Shown piece by piece: positions 2,436 to 27,209 of a DNA stretch of 64,000 nucleotides; within the stretch, counting starts at the first letter, position 1; each line of letters starts with the position of its first letter. The notes below the pieces were generated by a model that was not told the origin of the DNA, searched no databases, and saw only the letters and a program-made list of their open reading frames with translations. A program made the position numbers and the translations under genes. This DNA comes from Agarivorans albus (GTDB lineage: Bacteria > Pseudomonadota > Gammaproteobacteria > Enterobacterales > Celerinatantimonadaceae): NCBI RefSeq assembly GCF_019670105.1, contig NZ_AP023032.1, positions 3,280,972 through 3,344,971 on the forward strand, in the 5' to 3' direction.

Positions 2436-3185
2436 TTAACCAAAATCGCCATTCACGTAACCGCGAGTTCGCTCATCCACTGGCGCATTGAATACTTGGT
2501 CGGTATCGCCATGCTCAACCAACTCGCCCATCCAAAAGAAGGCGGTTTTATCTGAAATACGCTTAGCTTGAGCCATTGAGTGCGTCACAATCACAATAGT
2601 GAACTTTTTACGCAACTCGTCCATCAACTCTTCAATCTTGTGAGTAGCAATAGGATCTAAGGCACTGGTTGGCTCATCCATCAAAATCACGTCTGGTTGA
2701 ATCGCAATGGTGCGCGCAATACACAGGCGCTGTTGTTGTCCACCAGATAAACCAAAAGCAGGGCTATTTAAACGGTCACTCACTTCATCCCATAAAGCAG
2801 CGCTGCGTAGCGCTGTCTCTACCGTTTCATCTAGAATTTTTTTATTGCGAATACCTTGAGCTTTTAAGCCGTAGGCTACATTTTCATAAATGCTCATTGG
2901 GAAAGGGTTCGCTTTTTGGAATACCATGCCCACCTTCATCCGAAGCGCTGCTACATTGCGATCTTGATAAATGTCTTTGCCTTCGAGCTTTACGTCACCT
3001 TTAATGGTTACGTTCTCAATTAAATCGTTCATACGATTTAACGTTCGCAATAACGTAGATTTACCACAGCCAGAAGGGCCAATTAACGCAGTAACTTTCT
3101 TTTCAGGGATCGGTAAGTTAATCCCTTTAAGGGCGTGAGTGTCACCGTAATGTAGGTCTAGTTGGTTAACGTCAAACTTATTCAT
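2436..3185 (-). CDS. pstB: Phosphate ABC transporter ATP-binding protein PstB
   Basis: A 249-residue ABC ATPase that powers high-affinity phosphate import. Walker A (GPSGCGKST) is at residues 36-44, followed by the signature LSGGQQQR and Walker B with [13 protein letters not shown], then the switch histidine in VTHSM. The length is normal for PstB. It is the last gene of pstSCAB, nine bases after pstA. No phoU follows: the next gene downstream is convergent, with a terminator between. PhoU, if present, must be encoded elsewhere. Confidence 0.97.
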
Positions 3186-3194
3186 ATCAATCTC

Positions 3195-4037
3195 TTAGTA
3201 AGAAGCTTTGTTGAATCGGCTAGCGATCAGCTTAGTTGTTAGGTTAATAAGCAGTACTAAAACAATTAGCACTGTTGCAGTTGCATAAGCCTGATTCCAT
3301 TCATGAACAGTGAACAATTCTTGAGTTAATTTGTATAAATGAACCGTTAAAGTTCGGCCTGAATCCATCACTGATTCAGGGATGCGAGTTACCATACCCG
3401 CGGTTAAGAATACCGGTGCAGATTCACCAATAATTCGACCGGTACTTAAGATAACTGCAGTAACAATGCCCGGCATTGCCGATGGTAGTACCACACGCCA
3501 AATGGTGTAAATACGTGAGCTTCCCAAACCATAAGAGGCTTCGCGATAAGCTTGAGGCACCGCAATTAGTGCTTCTTCGGTAGTACGAATAATCACTGGC
3601 AAAATCAAAATAGCTAGCGTTAAGGCGCCCGACAAAATAGAGAACCCCAAACCTAAAGTAACTACAAAGAAGGTCATACCAAACAAACCGTAAATGATCG
3701 ACGGTATGCCCGCTAGCGACTCAGTACAGAAGCGAATAACCTTAACTAATTTACTACCTGGCTTTGCATATTCGGTCAGGTATAAAGCGGTCATAATGCC
3801 AATAGGTGCGGCAATTGCGATAGACAATCCAACCATGTAAATGGTTGAAACAATCATCGAGAAAATACCCGAGGTTTTGCCAACGGTTGTATAAGCAGAG
3901 CTAATAAACTCCCAGCTAACATGGCTTAAGCCGTTGCTTAAAATATGCCAAAGCATCCAAACCAAGAATAAAATAGTCATGCCGGCTCCGCCCCAAATAA
4001 GGCTAAGCGCAATTCTGTCTTCAATACGGCGGCGCAT
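3195..4037 (-). CDS. pstA: Phosphate ABC transporter permease PstA
   Basis: A 280-residue inner-membrane permease with about six predicted membrane segments and the permease EAA-like loop (EALIAVPQAYREASYGLG). It pairs with PstC to form the phosphate channel. Its ATG shares one base with the pstC stop codon (TAATG), indicating translational coupling. The length matches the PstA family. Confidence 0.96.
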   Translation of the reverse strand: MRRRIEDRIALSLIWGGAGMTILFLVWMLWHILSNGLSHVSWEFISSAYTTVGKTSGIFSMIVSTIYMVGLSIAIAAPIGIMTALYLTEYAKPGSKLVKVIRFCTESLAGIPSIIYGLFGMTFFVVTLGLGFSILSGALTLAILILPVIIRTTEEALIAVPQAYREASYGLGSSRIYTIWRVVLPSAMPGIVTAVILSTGRIIGESAPVFLTAGMVTRIPESVMDSGRTLTVHLYKLTQELFTVHEWNQAYATATVLIVLVLLINLTTKLIASRFNKASY

Positions 4038-14401: not shown

Positions 14402-16390
14402 ATGAAACTCAAAGTTGTAACCCGCACACTACTTGGTTTTGCTGTGCTACTTGCGTTGTTGTTGATTGTTGCGCTAATTGGCCAACTTAATATGCGACAA
14501 CTAGAAAGCCAACTGGATCAAACCGTCAGCCGCTTAGCGCCAATGGCAGAGCAAGTGAATCAACTATCGGGATTATTGCTTAACTCGGCGCGCAAAGTTG
14601 GCTTACACAGCAATAGCCAAAACCGCCAACAAGCAGAGCAACTAGAACAGGAAGTTACCAGCCTATTTAGCAGCTACAGCCAACGTATCGAGTCCCTCTC
14701 TCAGTTAGCCCAACCTTACCCGCAAATAGTGAGCGGTTTAAGCCAATTAGACCAAGACCTTAATAGCATTAAAACCACCAGCCAAACGCAGTTAACCTTG
14801 GCCAACCAAGCGCAACAAGCACAGCAGTTGTTAACCAATCAGCGCCAAAGCTTTAATCAAAAGTGGAAAAACTTTGCGGGTGATATGGAGTTTATGATTG
14901 AAATGGTAGAAGAGAATGCCGAATGGGTTGTAACCGGCATGCAAGCCGACATAGCGGCGTTTTCTGGCTCTCTCGAGAAACTGTTTTATGCTCAAAATGC
15001 CCAGCAGTTTGACTCCCAATTTAGTGTGGTATCTAGTTATTACAAATCTCTTCAGCAAAAGCAGGAACAATTGCTCAAGCTAGACCCAGCCAGTGGTGAG
15101 GAGTTAACCAGCTATTTCGAGTTACTCAAACAAGCCTTTGCTAACAACGGTCTATTTACCAATCTAAAAAATCAGCAATTAGTTCTGAGTCGTCAAAACG
15201 AACAACTAGTGACACTAAACCAACAAACAGACCAAGCCCTAAACTTGCTCGACAATATCTCTGAGCAACTAAGCCAAATCATTGCAGCCGCTCACCTGCA
15301 AGCTCAACAAAGCTCGAGTTCAGCGCTATTGCAAACTGGACTCGTGCTGCTTTTGTCAATTGCTATAACCCTCTTTGTAGCTTGGAACGTAAGCAGGCAA
15401 ATTCGCTTACCGCTAGCAAATACCCTGGCTCAAATTAAACGCATGGTAGATGGCGACTTTAGAACAGTTGAAGGTGTAAATGCCCACGATGAATTTGGTC
15501 AAATAGCCACTCACTTACATGAGCTTAGTGCCCAAATGAACCAGGTAATTAGTCAAATGAGCAATAACGCAAAGCAACTTGCTGCCAGTGCCAAGAGCGG
15601 CTTAGCAACCAGTGAGCATTCACATAAAGTGATTCAAGAGCAACAAGATCAAAGCCAGCTAGTTGCTGTTGCGGTAAGCCAAATGGAAGTAGGTGTTAAC
15701 GAAGTATCTGAGCAAGCCCAACAAAGCCGTGACGACATTGGCCAAGTAAACCAACTTACTGGGCAAAGCCACCAAGCCGCACAATCGACCTTAGCCACAA
15801 CTAATCAACTTCAAACCACCGTTGTAGATGCCAGCCAACAAGTGAGCGAGCTTAAACAACAAAGTGATGACATTAACCGTATCGTTGATGTTATCCAAGG
15901 CATAGCCGAACAAACCAACTTATTAGCCTTAAACGCCGCTATCGAAGCTGCCCGCGCAGGCGAACAAGGCAGAGGTTTTGCGGTCGTTGCCGATGAGGTT
16001 AGAGGATTAGCTACTCGCAGCCGCGAAGCCACGCAAGAAATTCTAACAATGATAGAGCAACTACAGAGCCGCGCTCAACACGCTATGGACATGATGGTAC
16101 AAGGCGAAACCATGGTGGGAAGCTGTATCAACGAAGCCGAGCAAAGCTCTCAACAGCTAGAGCAAGTTGCTCAACTGCTAAGCGCTATTCAACAGCGTAG
16201 CGAGAACATTGCCAATAACGCCCAAGATAAACACACCGTAGCGGTACAAGTAGCAAACAACGTTGAGAAAATTGTCGAACTGAGCGAGCTGGCCAACCGA
16301 GATGCTAACCAAACCCAGCAAATTAGCGATGCTCTGCAGCAGCAGTCTCAGCAACAGCTAAGCGAACTATCTAGGTTTAAGCTGGGATAA
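14402..16390 (+). CDS. Methyl-accepting chemotaxis protein with helical sensor domain
   Basis: About 662 residues. A first membrane segment (about 10-32) is followed by a roughly 290-residue all-helical, Gln-rich periplasmic sensor with coiled-coil character, resembling the helical bimodular (HBM) type. Then come a second membrane segment (about 315-335), a HAMP linker ([22 protein letters not shown]) and the cytoplasmic signalling hairpin with the tip [20 protein letters not shown]. It would report ligand binding to CheA. The ATG at 14402 (AGGGA upstream) is preferred over 14366, which would add twelve residues before the membrane segment. The ligand cannot be told from sequence. Confidence 0.93.
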
Positions 16391-16409
16391 ACAAACGGCT
16401 TTTACATAA

Positions 16410-16439
16410 ACATAAAGCGGTAATCACACCGCTTTATGT
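16410..16439. terminator. Convergent terminator, MCP / DUF1275 gene
   Basis: An 11-bp perfect stem (CATAAAGCGGT / ACCGCTTTATG) with a short loop. The DUF1275 stop codon on the opposite strand lies within the loop and right arm, so the hairpin serves two convergent genes that nearly touch. Confidence 0.75.
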
Positions 16440-17089
16440 TTAGCCTTATAGACCGAGTAGAACAGCGCCAAAAACAAACATACTCCAGCTGGTATCAATA
16501 AAGAGTAAAACGCCAAGTTAGCAAAGCCAAGTGCCCCTAAAGTGCCGCCGAGTATAAAACCTAGCACAATGAGTGAGAACAACAGTGCGCGCCGTTTATC
16601 AAATGGGCCACCACGAAGAACAGCCCCCAACATAATCCCCAAATCAGTAAATATACCGGTAACGTGAGTGGTGCGGACAACCGCACCACTGTAGGTAGTT
16701 GCCAAGGCATTTTGTAAGCCACACGCGGCGGATGCTAAGTAGATCCCATAAGAAAAGTCACCAATTAGTAGATAGCTAGCACCACAAAGAAACGTTGCCT
16801 CTAAGCAAAGTAGAGCGCTGTAATTACGCCCCAACTTTAACGCCTCACCACGTAAAAAGTAGCCAGAAATTGCAGCGCCCATAACAAAGCTAAACAACAC
16901 GCCAAACAAATATAGTAAATCGTTAAAGCCAGCACTCATTGCTCCCGTGCCCAGCAAAGTGGCCGTTCCAGACAAATGAGAAACCGACTGGTGCTTAAAT
17001 CCCAATAAGCCCACTGCGTTAATAAAACCCGCGTTCAACGCTAACAAAAACGTTCCATACTCAACCCAGCGAGGTAACTTAGAGATCAC
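16424..17089 (-). CDS. DUF1275/YoaK family membrane protein
   Basis: A 221-residue protein with six or so hydrophobic segments, of the YoaK/DUF1275 family. Hallmarks visible are LNAGFINAVGLLGFKHQSVSHLSGT near the N-terminus and the Ala-rich CGLQNALATTYSGAVVRTTHVTG motif in the middle. Function is unknown; a small-molecule transporter is often guessed. The start is a GTG with AGGA six bases upstream. Confidence 0.88.
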   Translation of the reverse strand: MISKLPRWVEYGTFLLALNAGFINAVGLLGFKHQSVSHLSGTATLLGTGAMSAGFNDLLYLFGVLFSFVMGAAISGYFLRGEALKLGRNYSALLCLEATFLCGASYLLIGDFSYGIYLASAACGLQNALATTYSGAVVRTTHVTGIFTDLGIMLGAVLRGGPFDKRRALLFSLIVLGFILGGTLGALGFANLAFYSLLIPAGVCLFLALFYSVYKAKHKAV

Positions 17090-17446
17090 AGCTATTCCTT
17101 GAACTTATACGCGTTTTTAATCCTTGCGAACAAAAGTTTACCAAACAACCAGGCCTTACCGAAGTAAGTAATAAGCGCCAGAGTAGTGACAACACAAGCA
17201 ACACAAGCAAAACACTTCTGCTAACTAAGGGCTTGGCAAAAATATCGCTCTTAAAATCGATGAAGGTTAAAGAACCCCCTTCGCAAAATGAGCCTTAAAC
17301 GATAATTCAAAGAGCCGAACAATCCAGTAGCGAACATTCATGGCTTTGATTGTTTAGACTAAAATCTAAACTTCACTGTGCGCGATGCTCTTTGATGCCT
17401 TAACGTCAATACTGCCTCAGCTGTATTTCAGCTTTAACTAAAAAAC

Positions 17447-17464
17447 TGTCTCAAATTTATGACA
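17447..17464. repeat. Operator-like site A (TGTCTCAAATT)
   Basis: An 18-base site TGTCTCAAATTTATGACA with inverted TGTC/GACA ends. It shares its first eleven bases and its GACA end with site B at 17550, 103 bases downstream. Two matching spaced sites upstream of one gene suggest binding of a dimeric regulator. Confidence 0.5.
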
Positions 17465-17549
17465 ACAAAAGCCTTTCATAATTATGAACTAAGCAATTTA
17501 TTCGCTTGTAGCCTTTATTTTTAAGCCCACCGCTCACTTTAAAAAACAC

Positions 17550-17567
17550 TGTCTCAAATTGGGGACA
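17550..17567. repeat. Operator-like site B (TGTCTCAAATT)
   Basis: An 18-base site TGTCTCAAATTGGGGACA, the second copy of the motif at 17447, with better arm symmetry (TGTCTC against GGGACA, five of six paired). A GAGACA half-site follows at 17667. Confidence 0.5.
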
Positions 17568-17582
17568 TAATAATTGACAAAA

Positions 17583-17608
17583 ATGAATATTTACCATTTA
17601 ATATTCAT
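17583..17608. repeat. Perfect inverted repeat upstream of GH48-1
   Basis: Arms ATGAATATT and AATATTCAT are perfectly complementary around an eight-base centre. The site lies 16 bases after operator-like site B. It could be a second transcription-factor site; it is too AT-rich to be a terminator. Confidence 0.45.
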
Positions 17609-17985
17609 CATCATTTATTTAAACAACAACACAAAGAAATGCAGTTCTTGGTAAAAAGCCCTCATTGAGACAGGCACAAGAATGCATATAAATCATTAAT
17701 AATAATGAAATAAAACTATAAAAACAGCCAATATAAGTCATACGTTAATATCTATAACAAAACTGAAATTGGTATAAACCTGTTAAAAAATCAATATCAC
17801 CTCAAACACCTCTCGCGATCACAATCACATATTTATGCAATAACACATGAAACAAACTCTAAATGTAGATTGTTTTTTATCCATTCAATGTTTTACATCA
17901 CGCTGCCAGATTTGTTCATCAAAACAGCTATAGATATTTCTATTAATAAGTTTGATTCTTTAGCCCGGATTTATCGTTCGATCTG

Positions 17986-18178
17986 TTGGCTAGGTGTTAA
18001 CTCCCCTTGTAAAAAAACTACACGCTCAAACTAGCCAAGAGCTTGGCGATAGATTCCGTTTTTTTAGGCTGTATAAAAATCTGTAGCTAGGTGATGCGGC
18101 TAGAAAGCCACACACGGCAACAGTGGCCAATGTGTTTTAAAGGTGACAGCAATACCCTGTCGTTAGGGTTTATTTTTT
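17986..18178 (+). promoter_or_regulatory. Structured leader with competing hairpins before GH48-1
   Basis: Two sets of mutually exclusive pairings are visible. First, TTGGCTAG (17986) can pair with CTAGCCAA (18031), while GCCAA (18034) can pair with TTGGC (18043), with a T7 run a little later at 18059. Second, GACAG (18144) can pair with CTGTC (18157), while ACCCT (18154) can pair with AGGGT (18165), directly followed by TTATTTTTTG and then the GGAG of the gene. Overlapping pairings before a U run are the layout of attenuators and riboswitch expression platforms. No known aptamer class matches. Short stems make this a hypothesis. Confidence 0.4.
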
Positions 18179-18193
18179 GAAATGGAGTTTACA

Positions 18194-21100
18194 ATGCAAT
18201 TTGCTAAACGTTTAGGTTCGAACCATTTACGCGGTTCAAATCAAGCTACTGGGTTAATACGACGCTCTAAACTTACCGCCGCAATTGTTAGTGCCCTTGT
18301 TGGGGTTAGCTTTTCTGGTATCGCTAATGCGTCGGTATATGAAGATCGTTTTGCTGAAATTCGCGGTGAAATTTACGCACCAGAAAATGGTTATTTAAGT
18401 GCCGACGGTGGCCCTTACCACTCTATCGAAACTTTTATTATTGAAGCGCCAGATCACGGGCATGAATCAACCTCTGAAGCGTATTCTTACATTCTTTGGT
18501 TAGAAGCTGTTCACGGTAAACTAACCGGTGATTGGCAACCGCTTATCGACGCCTGGGCTCTTATTGAAGACCACATTATTCCTACTTCGGAAATGCAGCC
18601 TACGGCCGATAAATACGCTAACGCTAAAGCGACTTATGTACCAGAAGGCCCGTTACCTTCTAGCTATCCCCTACCACTAACTAACGGCGCAGCTGTAGGT
18701 GAAGATCCAATCAGTGCCGACCTAGCTTCAACTTACGGTACCTGGGACGTTTACGGTATGCACTGGTTGTTAGACATGGACAATGTCTACCAGTACGGTA
18801 ATTTGGGAGACGGAACGTCTACGCCTTCATACATCAACACCTTCCAGCGTGGCGAACAAGAGTCGGTATGGGAAACGGTGCCACACCCATCTTGGGAAGA
18901 TTTTAGTTGGGGCGGCGAGTACGGCTTTTTAGACTTGTTTGTTAAAGAGTCTCAAGCGCCTGCTAAGCAATGGCGTTACACCAATGCGCCAGATGCCGAT
19001 GCTCGTGCAGTTCAAGTTATGTACTGGGCATTGCAGTGGATGAAAGAACGAGGACAAGATCCAGAAGTTGTAGCACCTGGTCTAATGGCTAAAGCAGCCA
19101 AAATGGGTGATTACCTGCGTTTGGCCATGTTTGACAAATACTTCAAGAAGATTGGTTCGCAAGATGCGCAAGGAAGCGCTGGCCAAGGTTACGACTCTGC
19201 TCACTACCTAATGTCTTGGTACTATTCTTGGGGCGGTCCCATTGACCCTTCAGCAAACTGGGCTTGGCGTATTGGTTCTAGCCACGTTCACTTTGCCTAC
19301 CAAAACCCAATGGCGGCTTATGCACTCTCGCAAATTGCCGAGCTACAACCTAAAGCACCAAACTCAGTTCGCGATTGGGATATTGGCCTAGAGCGTTCTT
19401 TAGAATTTTTCCAATGGACACAGTCAGCTGAGGGCGCATTCTCTGGTGGTGCCACCAACAGTTGGAACGGAAAATACGATACCTACCCAGCAGACCGCGC
19501 TAACAATACCTTCTATGGTTTAGCCTACGACGAAAACCCAGTTTATGAAGATCCAGGTTCTGGCACTTGGTTCGGTTGGCAAACTTGGGGGGTTGAGCGG
19601 GTAGCTGAATACTACTTCATTACTGGCGAAGCACGCGCTAAAGCGATCCTAGATAAGTGGATTAGCTGGGTGCTAAACGCTACACCAGAAAAAGGCCTAC
19701 CAGTTCTCGATTTTAGTGACAACGACGTAAAACTCGCTGCAACTTTAGCCTTTACGGGTGTTCCAGAGAAATGGGATCCTGCTAACCCTAAAGCCAATAC
19801 AAACCTTCATGTTGAAGTAATAGACCACGGGCAAGATGTGGGTGTTGCGCACAACTTAGCTAAAACCCTTATGTACTACGCTGCAGCAGAACAGAAACAC
19901 CAAGGTGAAGTTCATCAAGGTGCTAAAGATGCTGCACAAATGATTTTGGATCGTTTTTGGGCTAACCATCGCACAGATAAAGGTGTCTCGGCCCCTGAAA
20001 CACGCAGCGACTATGCAGAACGCATCAACGAGCCAGTATTCTTCCCAGCAGGATGGAGCGGTAAAAATGCGGTTGGCGCAGACTTAAATGCCGACACCAC
20101 ATTCTCTAGCATGCGTCCTTTCTACAACGAATCAGATCCAGGATATCAAGAGCTGCAAAATGCTTTAGCTGAAGGTCGCGATCCAACATACACTTACCAC
20201 CGTTACTGGGCCCAAGTAGATGTTGCAACTGCAAACGCCTTGTATGCTGAATTGTTCCCTGAGGCTGATTGTGCAGACGGATGCGCCCCAAGCGCTAAAG
20301 ACATTGCAGTTAAAACTTCGGTAAACACTGCAACTAGCATTACCCTAGAAGGCAGTGACAGCAATGGCACGGTAGAGTCTTACAACTACAGCCAAGCGAG
20401 CAACGGCACAGTAAGTGGCACAGGTAAACAAGTTACTTATACTCCGCAAAATGGCTTTGTAGGTGTTGATAGCTTTACTTACACAGTTACCGACAACGAG
20501 CAACTAAGCTCTGCCCCAGCTACGGTAACTATCACTGTTGAAGATCTAAACAGTAACTTGCCACCAGAAGCGTGTTTTACTGCTACACCAACTAGTGCAA
20601 TGGTAGGCGATATCATTAGCTTTGACGCAAGCTGTGCAACAGACACTGATGGCGACACCTTAAGCTACAGCTGGGCCTTTGGCGACAACAGCAACGGCAG
20701 CGGTGCAAGCATTAAGCACAGTTATGCAGCCGCTGGCAGCTACGACGCAGTGTTAACAGTAAATGATGGCAAAGGTGGCGTAGATACTTCAAACGTAACT
20801 ATCACCATTGAAGAGCCTGCTGGCAACCTGCCTCCGGAAGCTTGTTTTACCGCTACCCCAACCAGCGCTAATGTTGGCGACGCGATTAGCTTTAACGCTA
20901 ACTGCTCAAACGATGCAGACGGAGATAACTTAAGCTATAGCTGGGCCTTTGGCGACAACAGCAATGGCAGCGGAGCTTCAACTCAACATAGCTACTCACA
21001 AGCGGGTAGCTACAATGCAGTACTAACAGTAGACGATGGTAAAGGTGGTGTAGATACCTCTAGCACTACTATCACTATTAGCGAAGCGCCGGTTTCTAGC

Positions 21101-21406
21101 GCTAGCTGTAAGTACGAAGTGCAAAACCACTGGAACGCTGGCTTTGTTGCAACCATAACCATTACTAACAACGGTAACGAAGTGATTGATGGTTGGGATG
21201 TTAACTGGAACTACGCCGACGGTTCGGTAATGAGCAACGGTTGGAACGCTAACTTTAGTGGTAGCAATCCATACTCTGCTAGCTCATTAAGCTGGAACTC
21301 ACGCATCCAGCCAGGCCAATCAGTAAGTTTTGGTCTGCAAGGTAATAAAGCGGTATTTAACGGCCCTGCTCCTGTGGCAACCGTAACTGGCGCTGTGTGT
21401 AACTAA
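18194..21406 (+). CDS. Secreted GH48 cellulase 1 (GH48, Ig-like, 2x PKD, CBM2)
   Basis: A 1070-residue secreted enzyme. Residues 1-46 form an extended signal peptide ending at FSGIANA. Residues 47 to about 692 are a GH48 catalytic domain, the family of processive reducing-end cellobiohydrolases; the block APDHGHESTSEAYSYILWLE holds the likely general acid Glu91, aligned with Glu55 of Cel48F. An Ig/cadherin-like module (about 700-785, YTPQNGFVGVDSFTYTVTD), two PKD domains (about 789-878 and 879-968, each with SYSWAFGD) and a C-terminal CBM2 (971-1070) follow. The start at 18194 is chosen because GGAG lies six bases upstream; an ATG at 18182 is in frame. It is paralogous to the next gene. Confidence 0.95.
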   Translation: MQFAKRLGSNHLRGSNQATGLIRRSKLTAAIVSALVGVSFSGIANASVYEDRFAEIRGEIYAPENGYLSADGGPYHSIETFIIEAPDHGHESTSEAYSYILWLEAVHGKLTGDWQPLIDAWALIEDHIIPTSEMQPTADKYANAKATYVPEGPLPSSYPLPLTNGAAVGEDPISADLASTYGTWDVYGMHWLLDMDNVYQYGNLGDGTSTPSYINTFQRGEQESVWETVPHPSWEDFSWGGEYGFLDLFVKESQAPAKQWRYTNAPDADARAVQVMYWALQWMKERGQDPEVVAPGLMAKAAKMGDYLRLAMFDKYFKKIGSQDAQGSAGQGYDSAHYLMSWYYSWGGPIDPSANWAWRIGSSHVHFAYQNPMAAYALSQIAELQPKAPNSVRDWDIGLERSLEFFQWTQSAEGAFSGGATNSWNGKYDTYPADRANNTFYGLAYDENPVYEDPGSGTWFGWQTWGVERVAEYYFITGEARAKAILDKWISWVLNATPEKGLPVLDFSDNDVKLAATLAFTGVPEKWDPANPKANTNLHVEVIDHGQDVGVAHNLAKTLMYYAAAEQKHQGEVHQGAKDAAQMILDRFWANHRTDKGVSAPETRSDYAERINEPVFFPAGWSGKNAVGADLNADTTFSSMRPFYNESDPGYQELQNALAEGRDPTYTYHRYWAQVDVATANALYAELFPEADCADGCAPSAKDIAVKTSVNTATSITLEGSDSNGTVESYNYSQASNGTVSGTGKQVTYTPQNGFVGVDSFTYTVTDNEQLSSAPATVTITVEDLNSNLPPEACFTATPTSAMVGDIISFDASCATDTDGDTLSYSWAFGDNSNGSGASIKHSYAAAGSYDAVLTVNDGKGGVDTSNVTITIEEPAGNLPPEACFTATPTSANVGDAISFNANCSNDADGDNLSYSWAFGDNSNGSGASTQHSYSQAGSYNAVLTVDDGKGGVDTSSTTITISEAPVSSASCKYEVQNHWNAGFVATITITNNGNEVIDGWDVNWNYADGSVMSNGWNANFSGSNPYSASSLSWNSRIQPGQSVSFGLQGNKAVFNGPAPVATVTGAVCN

Positions 21407-21437
21407 GATCCAATGTTCGTTTCATAATCCGTAAGTA

Positions 21438-21461
21438 AAGGAGGCCTAGGCCTCCTTTTTT
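21438..21461 (+). terminator. Terminator after GH48-1
   Basis: A perfect stem (AAAGGAGGCC / GGCCTCCTTT, two-base TA centre) followed by a T run, 30 bases after the stop. The two GH48 genes are therefore likely to be separate transcription units. Confidence 0.88.
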
Positions 21462-21937
21462 CATGTTTAAAACTAACAGCATGAGCATTTCCTCCAAACT
21501 AGAACCCATTTCGCAATCAACCCACCTCGCTAAGCAACAGGCGATAAATCCAGATCTCATTTTGAGCCGCTCACCTTCTGAAACATCGGCCTAATATTTC
21601 TTAACACTCACTAAGTTTGTGCTGCTCTCACACATTCGATCATTATTATCAAATCACATAATAAAAATCAAAAAGCTGACTTATACCTTTATTCGCATGA
21701 GGGAATTATGTGATTAGTCAATACTGTAAGGGCAAGATTGCCGCAAAGACATTGCCAAAGAGCAAACGCTAGCAATTCTTACAAATAAATTGAATGAACA
21801 TACATGCAAAGCAAAAGGTAAATAGCTAGCGAACGGAAAATTAGCTTACAGCACCAAGCTATGCGGTAACGAATCGTCGGCTATTGATGATACTCGCTCA
21901 TCATAATGATGAGTTTTCATACGAAACGGAGATTCAC
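21462..21937 (+). promoter_or_regulatory. Promoter and leader region of the second GH48 gene
   Basis: About 475 bases with no gene, between a terminator and the start of GH48-2. Near its end is a terminator-like palindrome (21897-21913). The TGTCTCAAATT motif of the first gene was not seen here, so the two genes may be regulated differently. Confidence 0.5.
21897..21917 (+). terminator. Terminator-like palindrome just before GH48-2
   Basis: CTCATCAT and ATGATGAG form a perfect palindrome around one base, followed by TTTT and then the GGAG of the gene. A long frame (start at 21884) runs through it, but the ATG at 21938 has the ribosome-binding site. This puts the hairpin in the untranslated leader, as in the first GH48 gene. 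Confidence 0.5.
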
Positions 21938-24871
21938 ATGTTTTTATCTAAAACATCCTGGATAAAGCCACAACAAACCACCGGCTTCTCAGGAAAAATC
22001 AAACACCACTCATTACGTTTATCTGTTATTGCCGCCCTTGCCAGTGCTGGTTTGAGTAGCATGGCTAATGCTGGTGTATATCAAGACCGCTTTACTGAGC
22101 TACGTAATGAAATTTATAACCCTGCTAATGGTTATCTAAGTGCTGATGGAGGTCCTTACCACTCGGTAGAAACCTTTATTATTGAGGCCCCCGATCACGG
22201 CCACGAATCAACCTCGGAAGCTTATTCCTATATTCTTTGGTTAGAAGCAGTGCACGGTAAAATCACCGGTGATTGGCAACCCTTAATTGAAGCTTGGAGA
22301 ATAATTGAAGAGCAGATTATTCCTACTTCAGAAATGCAGCCCACCGCAGCGAACTATGCCTCGGGTAAGGCAACTTATGTTCCAGAAGGACCTCTCCCCT
22401 CTAGCTATCCTCTAGCGCTAGACTCTGGTGCAGCAGTGGGTGAAGACCCAATTAGCGCAGGGCTAGCTGCAACTTATGGCACCTGGGATGTGTACGGCAT
22501 GCACTGGTTGCTAGACATGGATAATACCTACAAATACGGCAACCTTGGCGATGGTGTTTCTACTCCTTCTTACATCAATACCTTCCAACGAGGGGAACAA
22601 GAATCGGTGTGGGAAACTGTGCCTCACCCATCATGGGAAGAATTTAAATGGGGTGGAGAATATGGCTTTTTAGACCTATTTGTCTCTGAGCCGCAAGCCC
22701 CAGCCGCACAATGGCGCTACACCAATGCGCCGGACGCAGACGCGCGTGTAGTACAAGTGATGTATTGGGCCTTACAGTGGATGAAGGATCAAGGCGTAGA
22801 CCCAGAAGTGGTTGCTCCGGGTTTAATGGCTAAAACCTCCAAAATGGGTGACTACTTGCGTTTGGCCATGTTTGACAAATACTTCAAAAAAATTGGCTCG
22901 CAAGATGAACAAGGTAGCGCAGGTGTAGGCTACGAGTCTGCGCACTATTTAATGTCTTGGTATTACTCTTGGGGCGGCCCAATTGATACCACTCAAAACT
23001 GGGGCTGGCGCATAGGCTCAAGCCATATTCACTACGCATATCAAAACCCAATGGCAGCGTATGCGCTATCGCAAATCCCTGAGCTAAAACCACAGGCGCC
23101 TAACTCAGTAGAAGACTGGACCGTTGGTTTGGAGCGTTCTTTAGAATTTTTCCAATGGACCCAATCTGCGGAAGGTGCATTCTCTGGAGGAGCCACCAAT
23201 AGTTGGAACGGCACTTACTCCACCTACCCAGTAGAGCGCCAAAATGCCACTTTCTATGGCATGGTTTACGATGAAAACCCCGTTTATGAAGATCCCGGTT
23301 CGGGCACATGGTTTGGTTGGCAAGCTTGGGGCACCGAGCGCGTAGCCGAGTATTACTACATAACTGGCGAAGCGCGCTCTAAAGCGATAATGGATAAATG
23401 GATAGGCTGGATTTTAGACAGCAATCCGGCCACTGGTTTAGCTGTGCTAGATTTTAGTAATGACGATGTAAAACTCGCTGCAGGCCTAGAGTTTAGTGGC
23501 TTACCAGAGAAATGGGACCCCGCTAACCCGGTAGCTAACAACAACTTACACGTTACCGTTACTTCGCAAAACCAAGATGTTGGTGTAGCACACAGTTTGG
23601 CTAAAGCCTTAATGTACTACGCCGCTGCTGAAGAGAAACACCAAGGCCAAGTACACCAAGGAGCGAAAGACGCCGCGCAAATGATCTTAGATCGTTTCTG
23701 GGCTAACCATCGCACCGATAAAGGTGTAGCAGCTCCCGAAAGTCGTGGCGATTACCGAGAAAGAATTAACGATTCGGTATACTTTCCTCCCGGTTGGAGT
23801 GGTGTAAACGGTGTAGGAGCAGAGCTAAATGCAGATACTACCTTTACTAGCATGCGTCCTTTCTACAACGAGTCAGATCCTGGCTATGTAGAACTGCAAA
23901 CAGCCATCAGCGAAGACCGCGATCCAAGCTATACTTACCACCGTTACTGGGCTCAAGTAGATGTTGCTACCGCCAACGCGCTATACGAAGATTTGTTCCC
24001 CATCATCTGTGATGCCAACTGCCCACCAACAGCCAAAGACCTAGAAGTTAGCGGCAATTTGGATACTCCACTTAGCATTACCCTTGAGGGTAGCGACAGT
24101 AACGGCAGCATTGTTAGTTATGCCTATACTCAGGCAGCTAATGGCTCTGTTACTGGAAACGGTCCACAAGTGACCTATACGCCAAATGCTGGATACATCG
24201 GCGTAGATAGCTTCTCCTATACCGTTACCGACGATGAACAACTTACTTCAGAGCCAGCAACGGTAACCATTACGGTAGAAGATCCCAATAGCAATCTTCC
24301 TCCAGAAGCCTGTTTTTCTGCTTCACCAAGCAGTGCATATGTTGGTGACCCAGTTGCCTTTGACGCAGGTTGCTCAAGCGATGCAGACGGCGATACGCTT
24401 AGTTATGCTTGGGCCTTTGGTGATACCGCAACGGCCACCGGCGAAACCACTAGCCATAGCTATACAACTGCAGGTACTTATACTGCCGAGCTAAGTGTTG
24501 ATGATGGTAAAGGCGGAGTAGATACTAGCAGTAAAGTCATTACCGTAACCGAAGCTCCAGTAGTCGCTAACTGCAGTTACACTGTTGATAACGAGTGGAA
24601 CTCTGGCTTTGTAGCTAGTATTACCATTAGCAACAATACTAACGCAGTCATTAACACTTGGGATGTAAGCTGGAGTTATAACGATGGTTCAAGTATGACC
24701 AGCGCTTGGAATGCCACTGTTAGTGGTACTAACCCTTACAGTGCAAGCTCACTGGCTTGGAATGGTCAAATTCAACCTGGCCAATCGGTAAGTTTTGGCC
24801 TGCAAGGTAGCAAAGGAGCGGCGAACCAACCAGCGCCAATCCCGGTAGTAAGCGGCGCAGTATGTAACTAG
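21938..24871 (+). CDS. Secreted GH48 cellulase 2 (GH48, Ig-like, PKD, CBM2)
   Basis: A 977-residue paralogue of the preceding enzyme: signal peptide (1-45, ending SSMANA), GH48 catalytic domain (46 to about 690, likely general acid Glu90 in GHESTSEA), Ig/cadherin-like module (about 700-785), a single PKD domain (from about 787) and a CBM2 (878-977). The catalytic domains of the two proteins are very similar residue for residue, with long identical blocks such as VYGMHWLLDMDN and SAEGAFSGGATNSWNG, so the pair arose by duplication. It lacks one PKD present in the first. The start at 21938 has GGAG seven bases upstream; in-frame ATGs further upstream lie within a leader hairpin region. Confidence 0.95.
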   Translation: MFLSKTSWIKPQQTTGFSGKIKHHSLRLSVIAALASAGLSSMANAGVYQDRFTELRNEIYNPANGYLSADGGPYHSVETFIIEAPDHGHESTSEAYSYILWLEAVHGKITGDWQPLIEAWRIIEEQIIPTSEMQPTAANYASGKATYVPEGPLPSSYPLALDSGAAVGEDPISAGLAATYGTWDVYGMHWLLDMDNTYKYGNLGDGVSTPSYINTFQRGEQESVWETVPHPSWEEFKWGGEYGFLDLFVSEPQAPAAQWRYTNAPDADARVVQVMYWALQWMKDQGVDPEVVAPGLMAKTSKMGDYLRLAMFDKYFKKIGSQDEQGSAGVGYESAHYLMSWYYSWGGPIDTTQNWGWRIGSSHIHYAYQNPMAAYALSQIPELKPQAPNSVEDWTVGLERSLEFFQWTQSAEGAFSGGATNSWNGTYSTYPVERQNATFYGMVYDENPVYEDPGSGTWFGWQAWGTERVAEYYYITGEARSKAIMDKWIGWILDSNPATGLAVLDFSNDDVKLAAGLEFSGLPEKWDPANPVANNNLHVTVTSQNQDVGVAHSLAKALMYYAAAEEKHQGQVHQGAKDAAQMILDRFWANHRTDKGVAAPESRGDYRERINDSVYFPPGWSGVNGVGAELNADTTFTSMRPFYNESDPGYVELQTAISEDRDPSYTYHRYWAQVDVATANALYEDLFPIICDANCPPTAKDLEVSGNLDTPLSITLEGSDSNGSIVSYAYTQAANGSVTGNGPQVTYTPNAGYIGVDSFSYTVTDDEQLTSEPATVTITVEDPNSNLPPEACFSASPSSAYVGDPVAFDAGCSSDADGDTLSYAWAFGDTATATGETTSHSYTTAGTYTAELSVDDGKGGVDTSSKVITVTEAPVVANCSYTVDNEWNSGFVASITISNNTNAVINTWDVSWSYNDGSSMTSAWNATVSGTNPYSASSLAWNGQIQPGQSVSFGLQGSKGAANQPAPIPVVSGAVCN

Positions 24872-24898
24872 CAGCTACAGCTAGCTTGTTGCAAGATC

Positions 24899-24926
24899 TA
24901 AAAAGGAGGCGCCGGCCTCCTTTTCT
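24899..24926. terminator. Terminator after GH48-2
   Basis: A stem of AAAAGGAGGC / GCCTCCTTTT with a GCCG loop and a T-rich end. It resembles the terminator of GH48-1 in sequence (AGGAGGC / GCCTCCT), suggesting that it was copied with the gene. It may also serve the convergent gene ending at 24950. Confidence 0.85.
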
Positions 24927-24949
24927 AATACCTAAAAACTCATTTTAAC

Positions 24950-25279
24950 TTAGTAATGAGTTAACGCATAAGCCAAAGAACGACCGCTACGGCAATCTTC
25001 TGGTGCAGTACCGTAACCAACCAATACAGGCGCATTAGTGGTTTTAGCCGACAATAGCATAGTAAAGAATCGCTCAGTCATAGCATCGTCCATCAGCGAA
25101 TCCAGAATAAAATAATCTTGGTCACAAGGCGTGCTTGGATGGTCATTCAGCTTAAAATAGATGGTTTGATTATTGTAGATTTTTACCCATTGCACTGTTG
25201 ACGTTACATTAGCGGTGTAGGCCGCACTCGAAGAAAATGAAATAGTTAAAAGAGCAATAAAAGCGAAAATAGTTTTCAT
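24950..25279 (-). CDS. Small secreted protein, unknown
   Basis: A 109-residue protein with a clean signal peptide (MKTIFAFIALLTISFSSSAA) and a compact mature part of about 90 residues with two cysteines that could form a disulfide (TPCDQDY and EDCRSG). I do not recognise the family. The frame extends upstream to 25309, but the ATG at 25279 follows AGGAAA at good spacing. It lies convergent to GH48-2 and is preceded by two abutting palindromes that may be its operator. Confidence 0.7.
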   Translation of the reverse strand: MKTIFAFIALLTISFSSSAAYTANVTSTVQWVKIYNNQTIYFKLNDHPSTPCDQDYFILDSLMDDAMTERFFTMLLSAKTTNAPVLVGYGTAPEDCRSGRSLAYALTHY

Positions 25280-25291
25280 ATGATTTCCTAG

Positions 25292-25329
25292 TTCAATCCA
25301 TTGAATCATTTGTCGTTAACAACAAATGA
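25292..25329. promoter_or_regulatory. Two abutting palindromes upstream of the small secreted protein
   Basis: TTCAATCCATTGAA (25292-25305) is a perfect 6-bp-arm palindrome. It directly adjoins a 24-base palindrome (25306-25329) with perfect arms TCATTTGT / ACAAATGA around a GTTAAC core. Both lie 13-50 bases before the start codon, where an operator or leader hairpin would be. Confidence 0.5.
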
Positions 25330-25462
25330 ATTATTTAGAGAGGTATTAAAAACATCTCTACTCCACGTTGAAGCTAGAAAAAATTAACTTTATATCAAAC
25401 ACTTATCAAGCACGAATTTCGCAAATTGACTAACTATTCTTAGTCTTAACCTACTAATACAA

Positions 25463-26407
25463 TTAAAATCCAATCTTGCTCAAGCTTTCTCGCATCGTTT
25501 CACCTGATTTTTGCAGAGCAGCTAACTCCTCGCTTTCAAGTGGTAGCTCAATCAATTTCTCAACCCCTTTTAAGCCAATGCACGCCGGTAAACTAAGGGC
25601 TACATTGCTAAGTTGATATTCGCCACTTAAACGCACCGATACAGGCAACACTGTTTTGCTGTCATCCAATATCGCTTCGACCAAACGTGCAATCACTACT
25701 CCTATTGCTAAGTTGGTGTAGCCCTTCCCTTCAATAATTTTGTAAGCCGCTTGCTTAACACTCTCGGCTAGCTCTTCTAATCGGCTAGCAGAATAGCTTA
25801 CGCCAAATACCGTTTGTCCTTGAATAGCTAAGCCTCCAATGCTCACCGTCGACCATGCCGCCAACTCCGAATCGCCATGCTCACCCAAAATGTAACCATG
25901 CACCGATTGCGGATCGACTTGATACATTTCGCCCAACAATGTTTTTAAACGCGAAGTATCTAACATAGTGCCGGTACCAATAATCCGATGTTTAGGGCGC
26001 TGGCTCAGCTCCTGCAACATAAACGTTAATACGTCTACCGGATTACTGGCCACCACCACAATGGCGCTAGGTGCATAGCGGTCGAGTTGATCAGCAATAG
26101 ATTTAAATACTTTGGCATTGTTTTCTAATAGCTCTAAGCGGCTCTCGCCCGATTTTTGTCCCACTCCAGCGGTAACAACAATAACTTGGCAACGGGCCAA
26201 GTCCGAGAACTCACCCGCACTAACTTGCATTCTGCCAGTTAAACCCTGCCCATGCATTAAGTCTAAGGCTTCCCCTTCTGCTCTAGCCTTATTCATATCT
26301 ACCAAAACCAGCTCTTCACAAGCTTCACGTAAGTACAGAGCGTAAGCCCCTGCTACACCAACATTGCCTACACCTACAATGCCCACACTGCGCGTTCGAT
26401 GTTCCAT
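25463..26407 (-). CDS. ldh: L-lactate dehydrogenase
   Basis: A 314-residue NAD-dependent lactate/malate dehydrogenase family enzyme. It has the nucleotide loop GVGNVGVAGA, the substrate loop AGVGQKSGESR with Gln84, which marks lactate rather than malate specificity (malate enzymes have Arg), Arg90, SNPVDVLT, and the catalytic GEHGDSE with His177. It interconverts pyruvate and L-lactate. The ATG is preceded by AAGGA. It is divergent from the GST gene. The Gln at position 84 makes LDH much more likely than MDH. Confidence 0.9.
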   Translation of the reverse strand: MEHRTRSVGIVGVGNVGVAGAYALYLREACEELVLVDMNKARAEGEALDLMHGQGLTGRMQVSAGEFSDLARCQVIVVTAGVGQKSGESRLELLENNAKVFKSIADQLDRYAPSAIVVVASNPVDVLTFMLQELSQRPKHRIIGTGTMLDTSRLKTLLGEMYQVDPQSVHGYILGEHGDSELAAWSTVSIGGLAIQGQTVFGVSYSASRLEELAESVKQAAYKIIEGKGYTNLAIGVVIARLVEAILDDSKTVLPVSVRLSGEYQLSNVALSLPACIGLKGVEKLIELPLESEELAALQKSGETMRESLSKIGF

Positions 26408-26576: not shown

Positions 26577-27209
26577 ATGTCCACTATTTTGTATTCTTTT
26601 CGCCGCTGCCCCTACGCCATGCGAGCGCGGTTAGCTATTGCAGTTAGCCAAACACCAGTAAAACTACGAGAAATAGTCCTCAAACATAAGCCGCCAGAAA
26701 TGCTGGAAATATCCCCCAAAGGCACTGTTCCTGTTTTGCAATTAGCCAATGGCCAAGTCATCGAAGAAAGCTTTGAGATAATGCTTTGGGCACTTAAACA
26801 AAACGATCCCAAGGCTTGGCTTTCCCCTAATTTCCAGAAGATGCTAGATTGGGTGCAGCGCAATGATGAGCAATTTAAGCCTTTATTAGATAAGTATAAA
26901 TACGCGGTGCGTTTTCCGGAGCAAAGCCCAGAAGACTACCGCCAACAAGGTGAGGCATTTTTGCAAGAGCTTGAACAACAGCTTAGCCGCACCCCTTATC
27001 TAATGGGCGAACAGCAGAGCCTAGCAGATATGGCATTGCTGCCTTTTATTCGTCAATTTGCTTCGGTCGATCTAAGGTGGTTTGAGCAAGCCCCCTATCC
27101 ACATTTGCAAGCGTGGTTAAAACAGTTTATTGACTCAGTATTGTTTCGCTCAATTATGCAAAAGCATCCCACATGGTTAGAGAGCGCCAGTGAAATCGAT
27201 TTTCCTTAA
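26577..27209 (+). CDS. Glutathione S-transferase family protein
   Basis: A 210-residue protein with an N-terminal thioredoxin-like GST domain and a C-terminal helical domain. The active-site motif is RRCPYAMRARLA, with Cys11 followed by PYA, as in glutaredoxin-like and omega-type GSTs that do thiol exchange rather than conjugation. The GTVPVLQL cis-proline loop and EESFEIM glutathione-binding segment are also present. Substrate unknown. It is monocistronic by appearance, with about 125 bases to the next gene. Confidence 0.9.
   Translation: MSTILYSFRRCPYAMRARLAIAVSQTPVKLREIVLKHKPPEMLEISPKGTVPVLQLANGQVIEESFEIMLWALKQNDPKAWLSPNFQKMLDWVQRNDEQFKPLLDKYKYAVRFPEQSPEDYRQQGEAFLQELEQQLSRTPYLMGEQQSLADMALLPFIRQFASVDLRWFEQAPYPHLQAWLKQFIDSVLFRSIMQKHPTWLESASEIDFP

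Follow-up and report, generated by a model that had tools for sequence, protein, structure and literature searches.

The window, a stretch of 64,000 nucleotides analysed as a whole, codes in Agarivorans for two full-length tandem GH48 proteins, both secreted-looking, which were numbered copy 1 and copy 2 in order along the + strand (Table 1). The initial annotation had described two full GH48 proteins lying side by side, with the module order GH48, Ig-like, PKD and CBM2 and with a leader and a terminator for each gene. This description held: the Pfam matches agreed with that order and revealed two PKD modules in copy 1, a signal-peptide-like leader was read by eye on each copy, and a terminator-like hairpin was located 3' of each gene. 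The start of copy 1 was set at 18194, with GGAG just upstream, where the list of open reading frames gives 18182; that of copy 2 was set at 21938 from the starts of its relatives, where the list gives 21884 (TTG).

Table 1. Features of the GH48 locus, in positions of the window
Feature	Position	Strand	Basis or content
Stretch missing in G001 and G003, 8104 bp	17360..25463	.	Bounded by TAAAATC at 17360 and 25464
Copy 1 (1070 aa)	18194..21406	+	GH48 / Big_9 / PKD / PKD / CBM2
Copy 1 GH48 catalytic domain	18338..20257	+	Pfam PF02011, E 9e-265, residues 49-688
Glu95 codon, copy 1	18476..18478	+	Cel48F Glu55 (acid), by alignment
Asp267 codon, copy 1	18992..18994	+	Cel48F Asp230 (candidate base), by alignment
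Copy 1 Big_9 Ig-like module	20285..20536	+	Pfam
Copy 1 first PKD	20555..20809	+	Within 270-nt direct repeat shared with second PKD
Copy 1 second PKD	20825..21079	+	Pfam
Copy 1 CBM2	21101..21400	+	Pfam PF00553, E 5e-29
Terminator-like hairpin 3' of copy 1	21437..21458	+	Terminator scan
Copy 2 (977 aa)	21938..24871	+	GH48 / Big_9 / PKD / CBM2
Copy 2 GH48 catalytic domain	22079..23998	+	Pfam PF02011, E 2e-258, residues 48-687
Glu94 codon, copy 2	22217..22219	+	Cel48F Glu55, by alignment
Asp266 codon, copy 2	22733..22735	+	Cel48F Asp230, by alignment
Copy 2 Big_9 Ig-like module	24017..24274	+	Pfam
Copy 2 PKD	24293..24547	+	Pfam
Copy 2 CBM2	24566..24865	+	Pfam PF00553, E 3e-30
Hairpin 3' of copy 2	24901..24924	+	Read from sequence; not listed by terminator scan

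Both copies covered positions 1-619 of PF02011, which is the whole model, with 880 and 859 bits against a cut-off of 25, and the catalytic part was matched at E <1e-100 by 14 distinct solved chain sequences, the best being 4fus. By these matches the GH48 membership of both copies is firm, as had been claimed. The NCBIfam profile NF041611 (exoglucanase CbhB equivalog) gave 839 and 831 bits, below its curated cut-off of 1950; judged by this profile, both copies are related to CbhB and lie outside the equivalog. A structure prediction made from 8 sequences was largely helical, but its mean pLDDT was 53.7, with 452 of 643 residues below 70 and 318 below 50, and the predicted (alpha/alpha)6 barrel fold follows only by homology to the solved chains. 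The catalytic parts of the copies are connected by two direct repeats of 300 nt, spaced 3741 apart, as is expected from one duplicated gene. The genome of the window (G000, 4.79 Mb in one contig) has no GH48 match besides these two.

The terminator scan returned 10 sites where 8.8 were expected by chance, so the hairpins are proposed on the basis of their position and of the GGAGGC/GCCTCC stem core that they have in common. The promoter scan returned 5 sites against 13.7 in shuffled sequences, and no promoter is therefore claimed. An operator shared by the cellulase genes was sought in seven upstream regions, with the GH5 gene inside the cluster described below left out. The best 10-mer (1 mismatch) occurred in 5 of the 7 regions, was equalled in 3 of 5 shuffles and was rejected.

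Cel48F from Clostridium cellulolyticum (chain 1f9o) was used as the reference for residues, with Glu55 taken by us to be the catalytic acid and Asp230 and Glu44 the base candidates. The aligned copies contain the acid and both candidate bases, Glu44 being equivalent to Glu84 in copy 1 and Glu83 in copy 2, and all three residues are kept in 16 of 16 aligned rows. It had been stated earlier that the catalytic Glu is retained as residue 91 or 90. The acid and the surrounding block are present, but the residue is Glu95 or Glu94, four positions downstream; the alignment pairs Glu91 and Glu90 with Cel48F Val51.

The tunnel was compared at the 36 positions of Table 2 in PMC5707792, mapped onto Cel48F by letter and offset. 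The copies agree at all 36 in the three genomes that bear the pair. Both equal Cel48F at 29, and the 7 positions at which they differ from it are ones where the five tabulated enzymes likewise differ from one another. Asp534 of the same table corresponds to Cel48F Asp494 and is likewise kept in the copies. Aromatic residues have been named for chain sliding in a section of PMC10317168; the mapped positions 154, 299, 310, 403, 411 and 417 are all aromatic here. Position 403 is Tyr in the copies and in Table 2 of PMC5707792, where PMC10317168 prints Trp. As enzymes, the GH48 proteins of the pair look ordinary.

GH48 is the key processive cellulase of Clostridia and Actinobacteria, usually found as one copy per genome, and in many bacteria it is a key enzyme for crystalline cellulose. 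It proved uncommon in Gammaproteobacteria, as the initial annotation had stated: a sample of 369 genomes from the class and one of 398 from the phylum each gave a single GH48-bearing genome, in both cases G000 itself. Within the family of the host it was present in 3 of 12 genomes, all three belonging to Agarivorans and holding two copies each (G000, G004 and G006, out of seven Agarivorans genomes). Agarivorans has been studied for seaweed polysaccharides, and the pair suggests that some of its members also feed on cellulose. The bearer G004 is Agarivorans sp. Toyoura001, whose genome note names agar, alginate and carrageenan and does not name cellulose (PMC6509519). Cellulase activity has been reported, in passages of PMC9029943 and PMC11122777, for an abalone isolate of the genus; the main text of the latter, on A. 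albus B2Z047, gives GH5, GH8 and GH9 for cellulose and contains no GH48. No report of GH48 in Agarivorans was found in our literature search.

The pair had also been regarded as unusual, and this was partly upheld. More than one GH48 per genome is described as rare in a passage of PMC7565076, but two are reported there for Clostridium thermocellum, and three for Bacteroides cellulosolvens in part of PMC6507058. Similarly, GH48 is rare in the class, but a GH48 domain followed by an Ig-like module was also encountered outside the genus, in 4fus and in Cellvibrionaceae bacterium AOL6. GH48 in Gammaproteobacteria is already known; the conserved tandem pair represents a modest novelty.

The origin of the pair was examined in a tree of 16 rows. 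Five of the nine homologue loci hold GH48 (L007-L011); L012-L015, whose matches are confined to query residues 725-1062 and lie beyond the catalytic part, were left out. The L007 protein, 91% identical to copy 1, was not entered as a separate row, its contig being that of G004, and the tree contained no insect GH48. The copy-1 and copy-2 proteins formed one clade each (100/100 for both), the two clades were joined at 99/98, and the Agarivorans pair was sister to Exilibacterium (100/100). Three of the 13 inner branches were open and the outgroup did not form one clean side, with the duplication nodes unaffected. In the catalytic domain, the six Agarivorans rows were 83-85% identical between copies and 94-96% between orthologues. 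Judged by these clades and their sister group, the duplication is younger than the divergence from the sampled Exilibacterium lineage and had already happened when the three Agarivorans gene sets separated. As read from the sequences, the pair is an old tandem duplication in the ancestor of several Agarivorans species, in line with the duplication suggested at the outset.

Strong purifying selection maintains both copies. The dN values were 0.019-0.036 between orthologues and 0.103-0.115 between copies, and omega was 0.013-0.059 where dS was finite, values which are approximate since dS was near or beyond saturation. Between the copies of G000, GH48 is 83% identical, against 62-66% in Big_9, PKD and CBM2. 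The catalytic domains contain 54 fixed differences between copies; the change seems to have occurred on the copy-1 side at 15 of them and on the copy-2 side at 11. A few of the 54, at 221, 311 and 416 in Cel48F numbering, flank tunnel residues.

It had been proposed that one copy either gained or lost a PKD module. Copy 1 has two in all three genomes and copy 2 has one, as do the two Exilibacterium proteins, while AOL6 has three. Within copy 1 the two PKDs share 81% identity and form a group of their own (84/80) that excludes the PKD of copy 2. This grouping and these counts indicate that the extra module was gained in copy 1; a later gain is the best reading, with moderate support, and a loss is not favoured.

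The closest relatives in the tree outside the genus, Exilibacterium tricleocarpae R142 and an Exilibacterium MAG (L008 and L010), have catalytic domains 77-78% identical to those of the pair and a single GH48 gene per stretch of about 20 kb, in contrast to the two found here; in L008 it is adjoined by a GH12-PKD-CBM2 gene. The AOL6 protein (L009) combines GH48, 67-69% identical, with Big_9, PKD and CBM2 as in the pair, but it carries two CBM2 modules besides its three PKDs, and its neighbour is a GH9 gene (L009:4857-12642). A GH9-like gene, recognized by eye, also adjoins GH48 in a Ruminococcaceae genome (L011:7983-13774). The chain 4fus, presumably from Hahella chejuensis, is 61-63% identical in GH48 and continues into the start of a similar Ig-like module, only the solved chain having been compared. 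Its deposited name, RTX toxins and related Ca2+-binding protein, is a misleading label for a GH48 catalytic domain. Cel48F is 51-53% identical and has the acid, the base candidates and most tunnel residues in common with the pair. It is a cellulosomal enzyme with a dockerin, whereas the Agarivorans proteins are free and carry CBM2. Clostridium (Hungateiclostridium) thermocellum likewise has more than one GH48 per genome, as given in a passage of PMC7565076, but its enzymes are 54% identical and differ in anchoring (dockerin versus CBM3), while those of Agarivorans are in tandem, 83% identical and nearly the same in modules.

Four of the seven Agarivorans genomes do not have the pair. In two of them, G001 and G003, similarity to the window stops at 17373 and starts again at 25464, and the junction holds a single TAAAATC, the 7-bp repeat that bounds the missing stretch in the window. 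Identity to the window was 95.9% on the right side, 90-92% on the left beside the gap and 97% further left; about 2.5 kb (G001) and 4.2 kb (G003) of extra sequence lies beside the chemotaxis gene. In G004 the pair stands between that chemotaxis gene and the one located at 26577 in the window, and its left side holds different genes. In G006 it occupies the corresponding place, and 16382-17772 of the window has no match there. The missing stretch also includes a small secreted-looking frame of 119 aa (24950-25309) with no Pfam match. A gene of the lactate/malate dehydrogenase family (25463-26407) stands beside the pair; its orthologues (92-99%) occur in G001, G003 and G006, hence in 4 of 7 genomes including G000, and it is absent on the right of the pair in G004.

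G003 is also without the GH9-GH5-GH9 cluster found in G000. A relic remains at L037 (about 2797-3290), in which sequence from the beginning of the first GH9 gene, or from immediately ahead of it, runs straight into the CBM2 end of the last GH9 gene and contains an internal stop, and the direction of change at that locus reads clearly as loss. Given this relic, and given that the 8.1-kb gap is clean and lies between 7-bp repeats, the GH48 pair too is best read as lost, and we propose, as the simplest explanation, that G001 and G003 show the locus after deletion of the pair.

A recent horizontal arrival of the pair in this strain was weighed against deletion. Its absence from four of the seven genomes of the genus and the close match of G001 and G003 to the nearby sequence would be consistent with such an arrival, as would the conflict among gene trees, which indicates that exchange happens within the genus. 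A two-gene tree joined G000 with G006 (92/94), whereas a three-gene tree, built without the second, identical rpoB of G000, joined G000 with G003 (88/91) and G001 with G006 (96/97). Recombination is thus likely, and a sister relationship of G001 and G003 cannot be asserted; exchange among the lineages of G000, G001, G003 and G006 probably occurred, and the junction common to G001 and G003 may have spread by it. However, the pair is at the corresponding position in three genomes, and it is 81% identical to that of G006 where the flanks are 78% identical, so pair and flanks diverged together. Together with the loss seen at the other cellulase locus of G003, these points make a recent arrival improbable. 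An older transfer into Agarivorans, or re-entry into G000 from an unsampled relative, could still have taken place.

A genome-wide family count showed GH9 and GH5 to be present, and GH6 to be absent, in the seven Agarivorans genomes; the same profile search for GH6 found three members in a Streptomyces plasmid used as a control. CBM2 occurs eight times in G000, namely in the GH48 pair, two GH9 proteins, three GH5 proteins and one LPMO. Two GH9-CBM3-Big_9-CBM2 proteins are encoded on either side of one GH5-CBM2 protein in the cluster mentioned above, two more GH5-CBM2 proteins are encoded elsewhere, and the LPMO (LPMO_10-Big_9-PKD-CBM2) has the same tail order as copy 2. LPMO_10 was found in 3 of 7 Agarivorans genomes, exactly the bearers of GH48, and GH9 with CBM2 was, by coordinates, limited to the same three. 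Only part of the cellulase set co-occurs with GH48, since one other GH9, and GH5 with 3 to 7 matches per genome, are present in all seven genomes. G006 carries in addition a GH8-CBM2 protein (L036), and a CBM2 frame of comparable length is present in G004. Near the GH9-GH5-GH9 cluster lies a frame of 865 aa (L035:13956-16553) with no Pfam match.

Taking these results together, we consider it highly probable that the pair represents tandem secreted GH48 cellulase paralogues, derived from an ancestral Agarivorans duplication and belonging to a free GH48/GH9/GH5/LPMO system without GH6. Each enzyme would be exported and then held on cellulose through its CBM2, and a cellulose chain would be threaded through the GH48 tunnel with mainly cellobiose released. 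Hydrolysis would be inverting, with Glu95/94 as the acid and Asp267/266 or Glu84/83 as the base. The enzymes would work jointly with GH9, GH5 and the CBM2-bearing LPMO in a non-cellulosomal system that employs GH48 and GH9 and no GH6. We infer the activity, direction, product, residue roles and secretion from the GH48 family, and activity on cellulose from the residues and partners as well; joint action draws on family knowledge, since in G000 a long distance separates the pair from the remaining cellulase genes.

Chitin had been named as an alternative main substrate of one or both copies, as proposed for insect GH48, and a passage of PMC12093494 lists the family for chitin as well as cellulose. 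The CBM2 modules are not decisive on this point, because CBM2 is also present in chitinases (ChiC match). The partner genes found, however, are of cellulase type: the six other CBM2 proteins are GH9, GH5 or LPMO, none (0/6) belonging to a chitinase family. The tunnel, moreover, differs from that of Cel48F only at positions of Table 2 in PMC5707792 that are variable among cellulases. Chitin as the main substrate was thus not supported, and we regard it as very improbable.

As for the second copy, neither dose nor targeting is clearly favoured. Retention of two near-equivalent enzymes for dose, GH48 being slow and required in quantity, is given by us a little less than an even chance. The identical tunnel residues suit it, as do the intrinsically low activity of GH48 and the sharp drop in biomass breakdown upon its deletion, both described in a part of PMC5707792. 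On the other hand, the copies have diverged to 83-85% with separate fixed residues, and each remains its own clade with no whole-domain gene conversion. A division of labour, in which the same tunnel is directed to different cellulose surfaces or conditions by the binding and linker modules and possibly by expression, is a tentative explanation that we rate slightly lower. It is suggested by the greater divergence of the non-catalytic modules, by the second PKD kept in copy 1 of all three genomes, by the fixed catalytic differences beside tunnel residues and by the separate upstream regions of the copies. Non-catalytic modules, however, often diverge faster, and the 54 fixed sites have no position in common with the 36 tunnel residues tabulated in PMC5707792; with tunnels that agree at 36/36, any division must lie elsewhere.

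With one tunnel in common and binding tails that have diverged further, the conserved tandem pair is a clean natural experiment on whether a duplicate can be retained through its targeting modules. One speculative scenario, which we hold to be rather doubtful, is that one cellulase gave rise to two durable forms, alike in their tunnel and unlike in their aiming parts, that targeting and not catalysis has long kept both in a GH6-free marine system, and that some relatives later discarded them.

A further doubling was noticed in G000, which has two rpoB copies (C1:4142927-4144570 and 4161190-4162833, L085 and L087) located 18 kb apart and identical over the 1126 codons compared, where the six other genomes have one. 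This doubling reflects either a segment that was duplicated recently or a repeat produced by the assembly.
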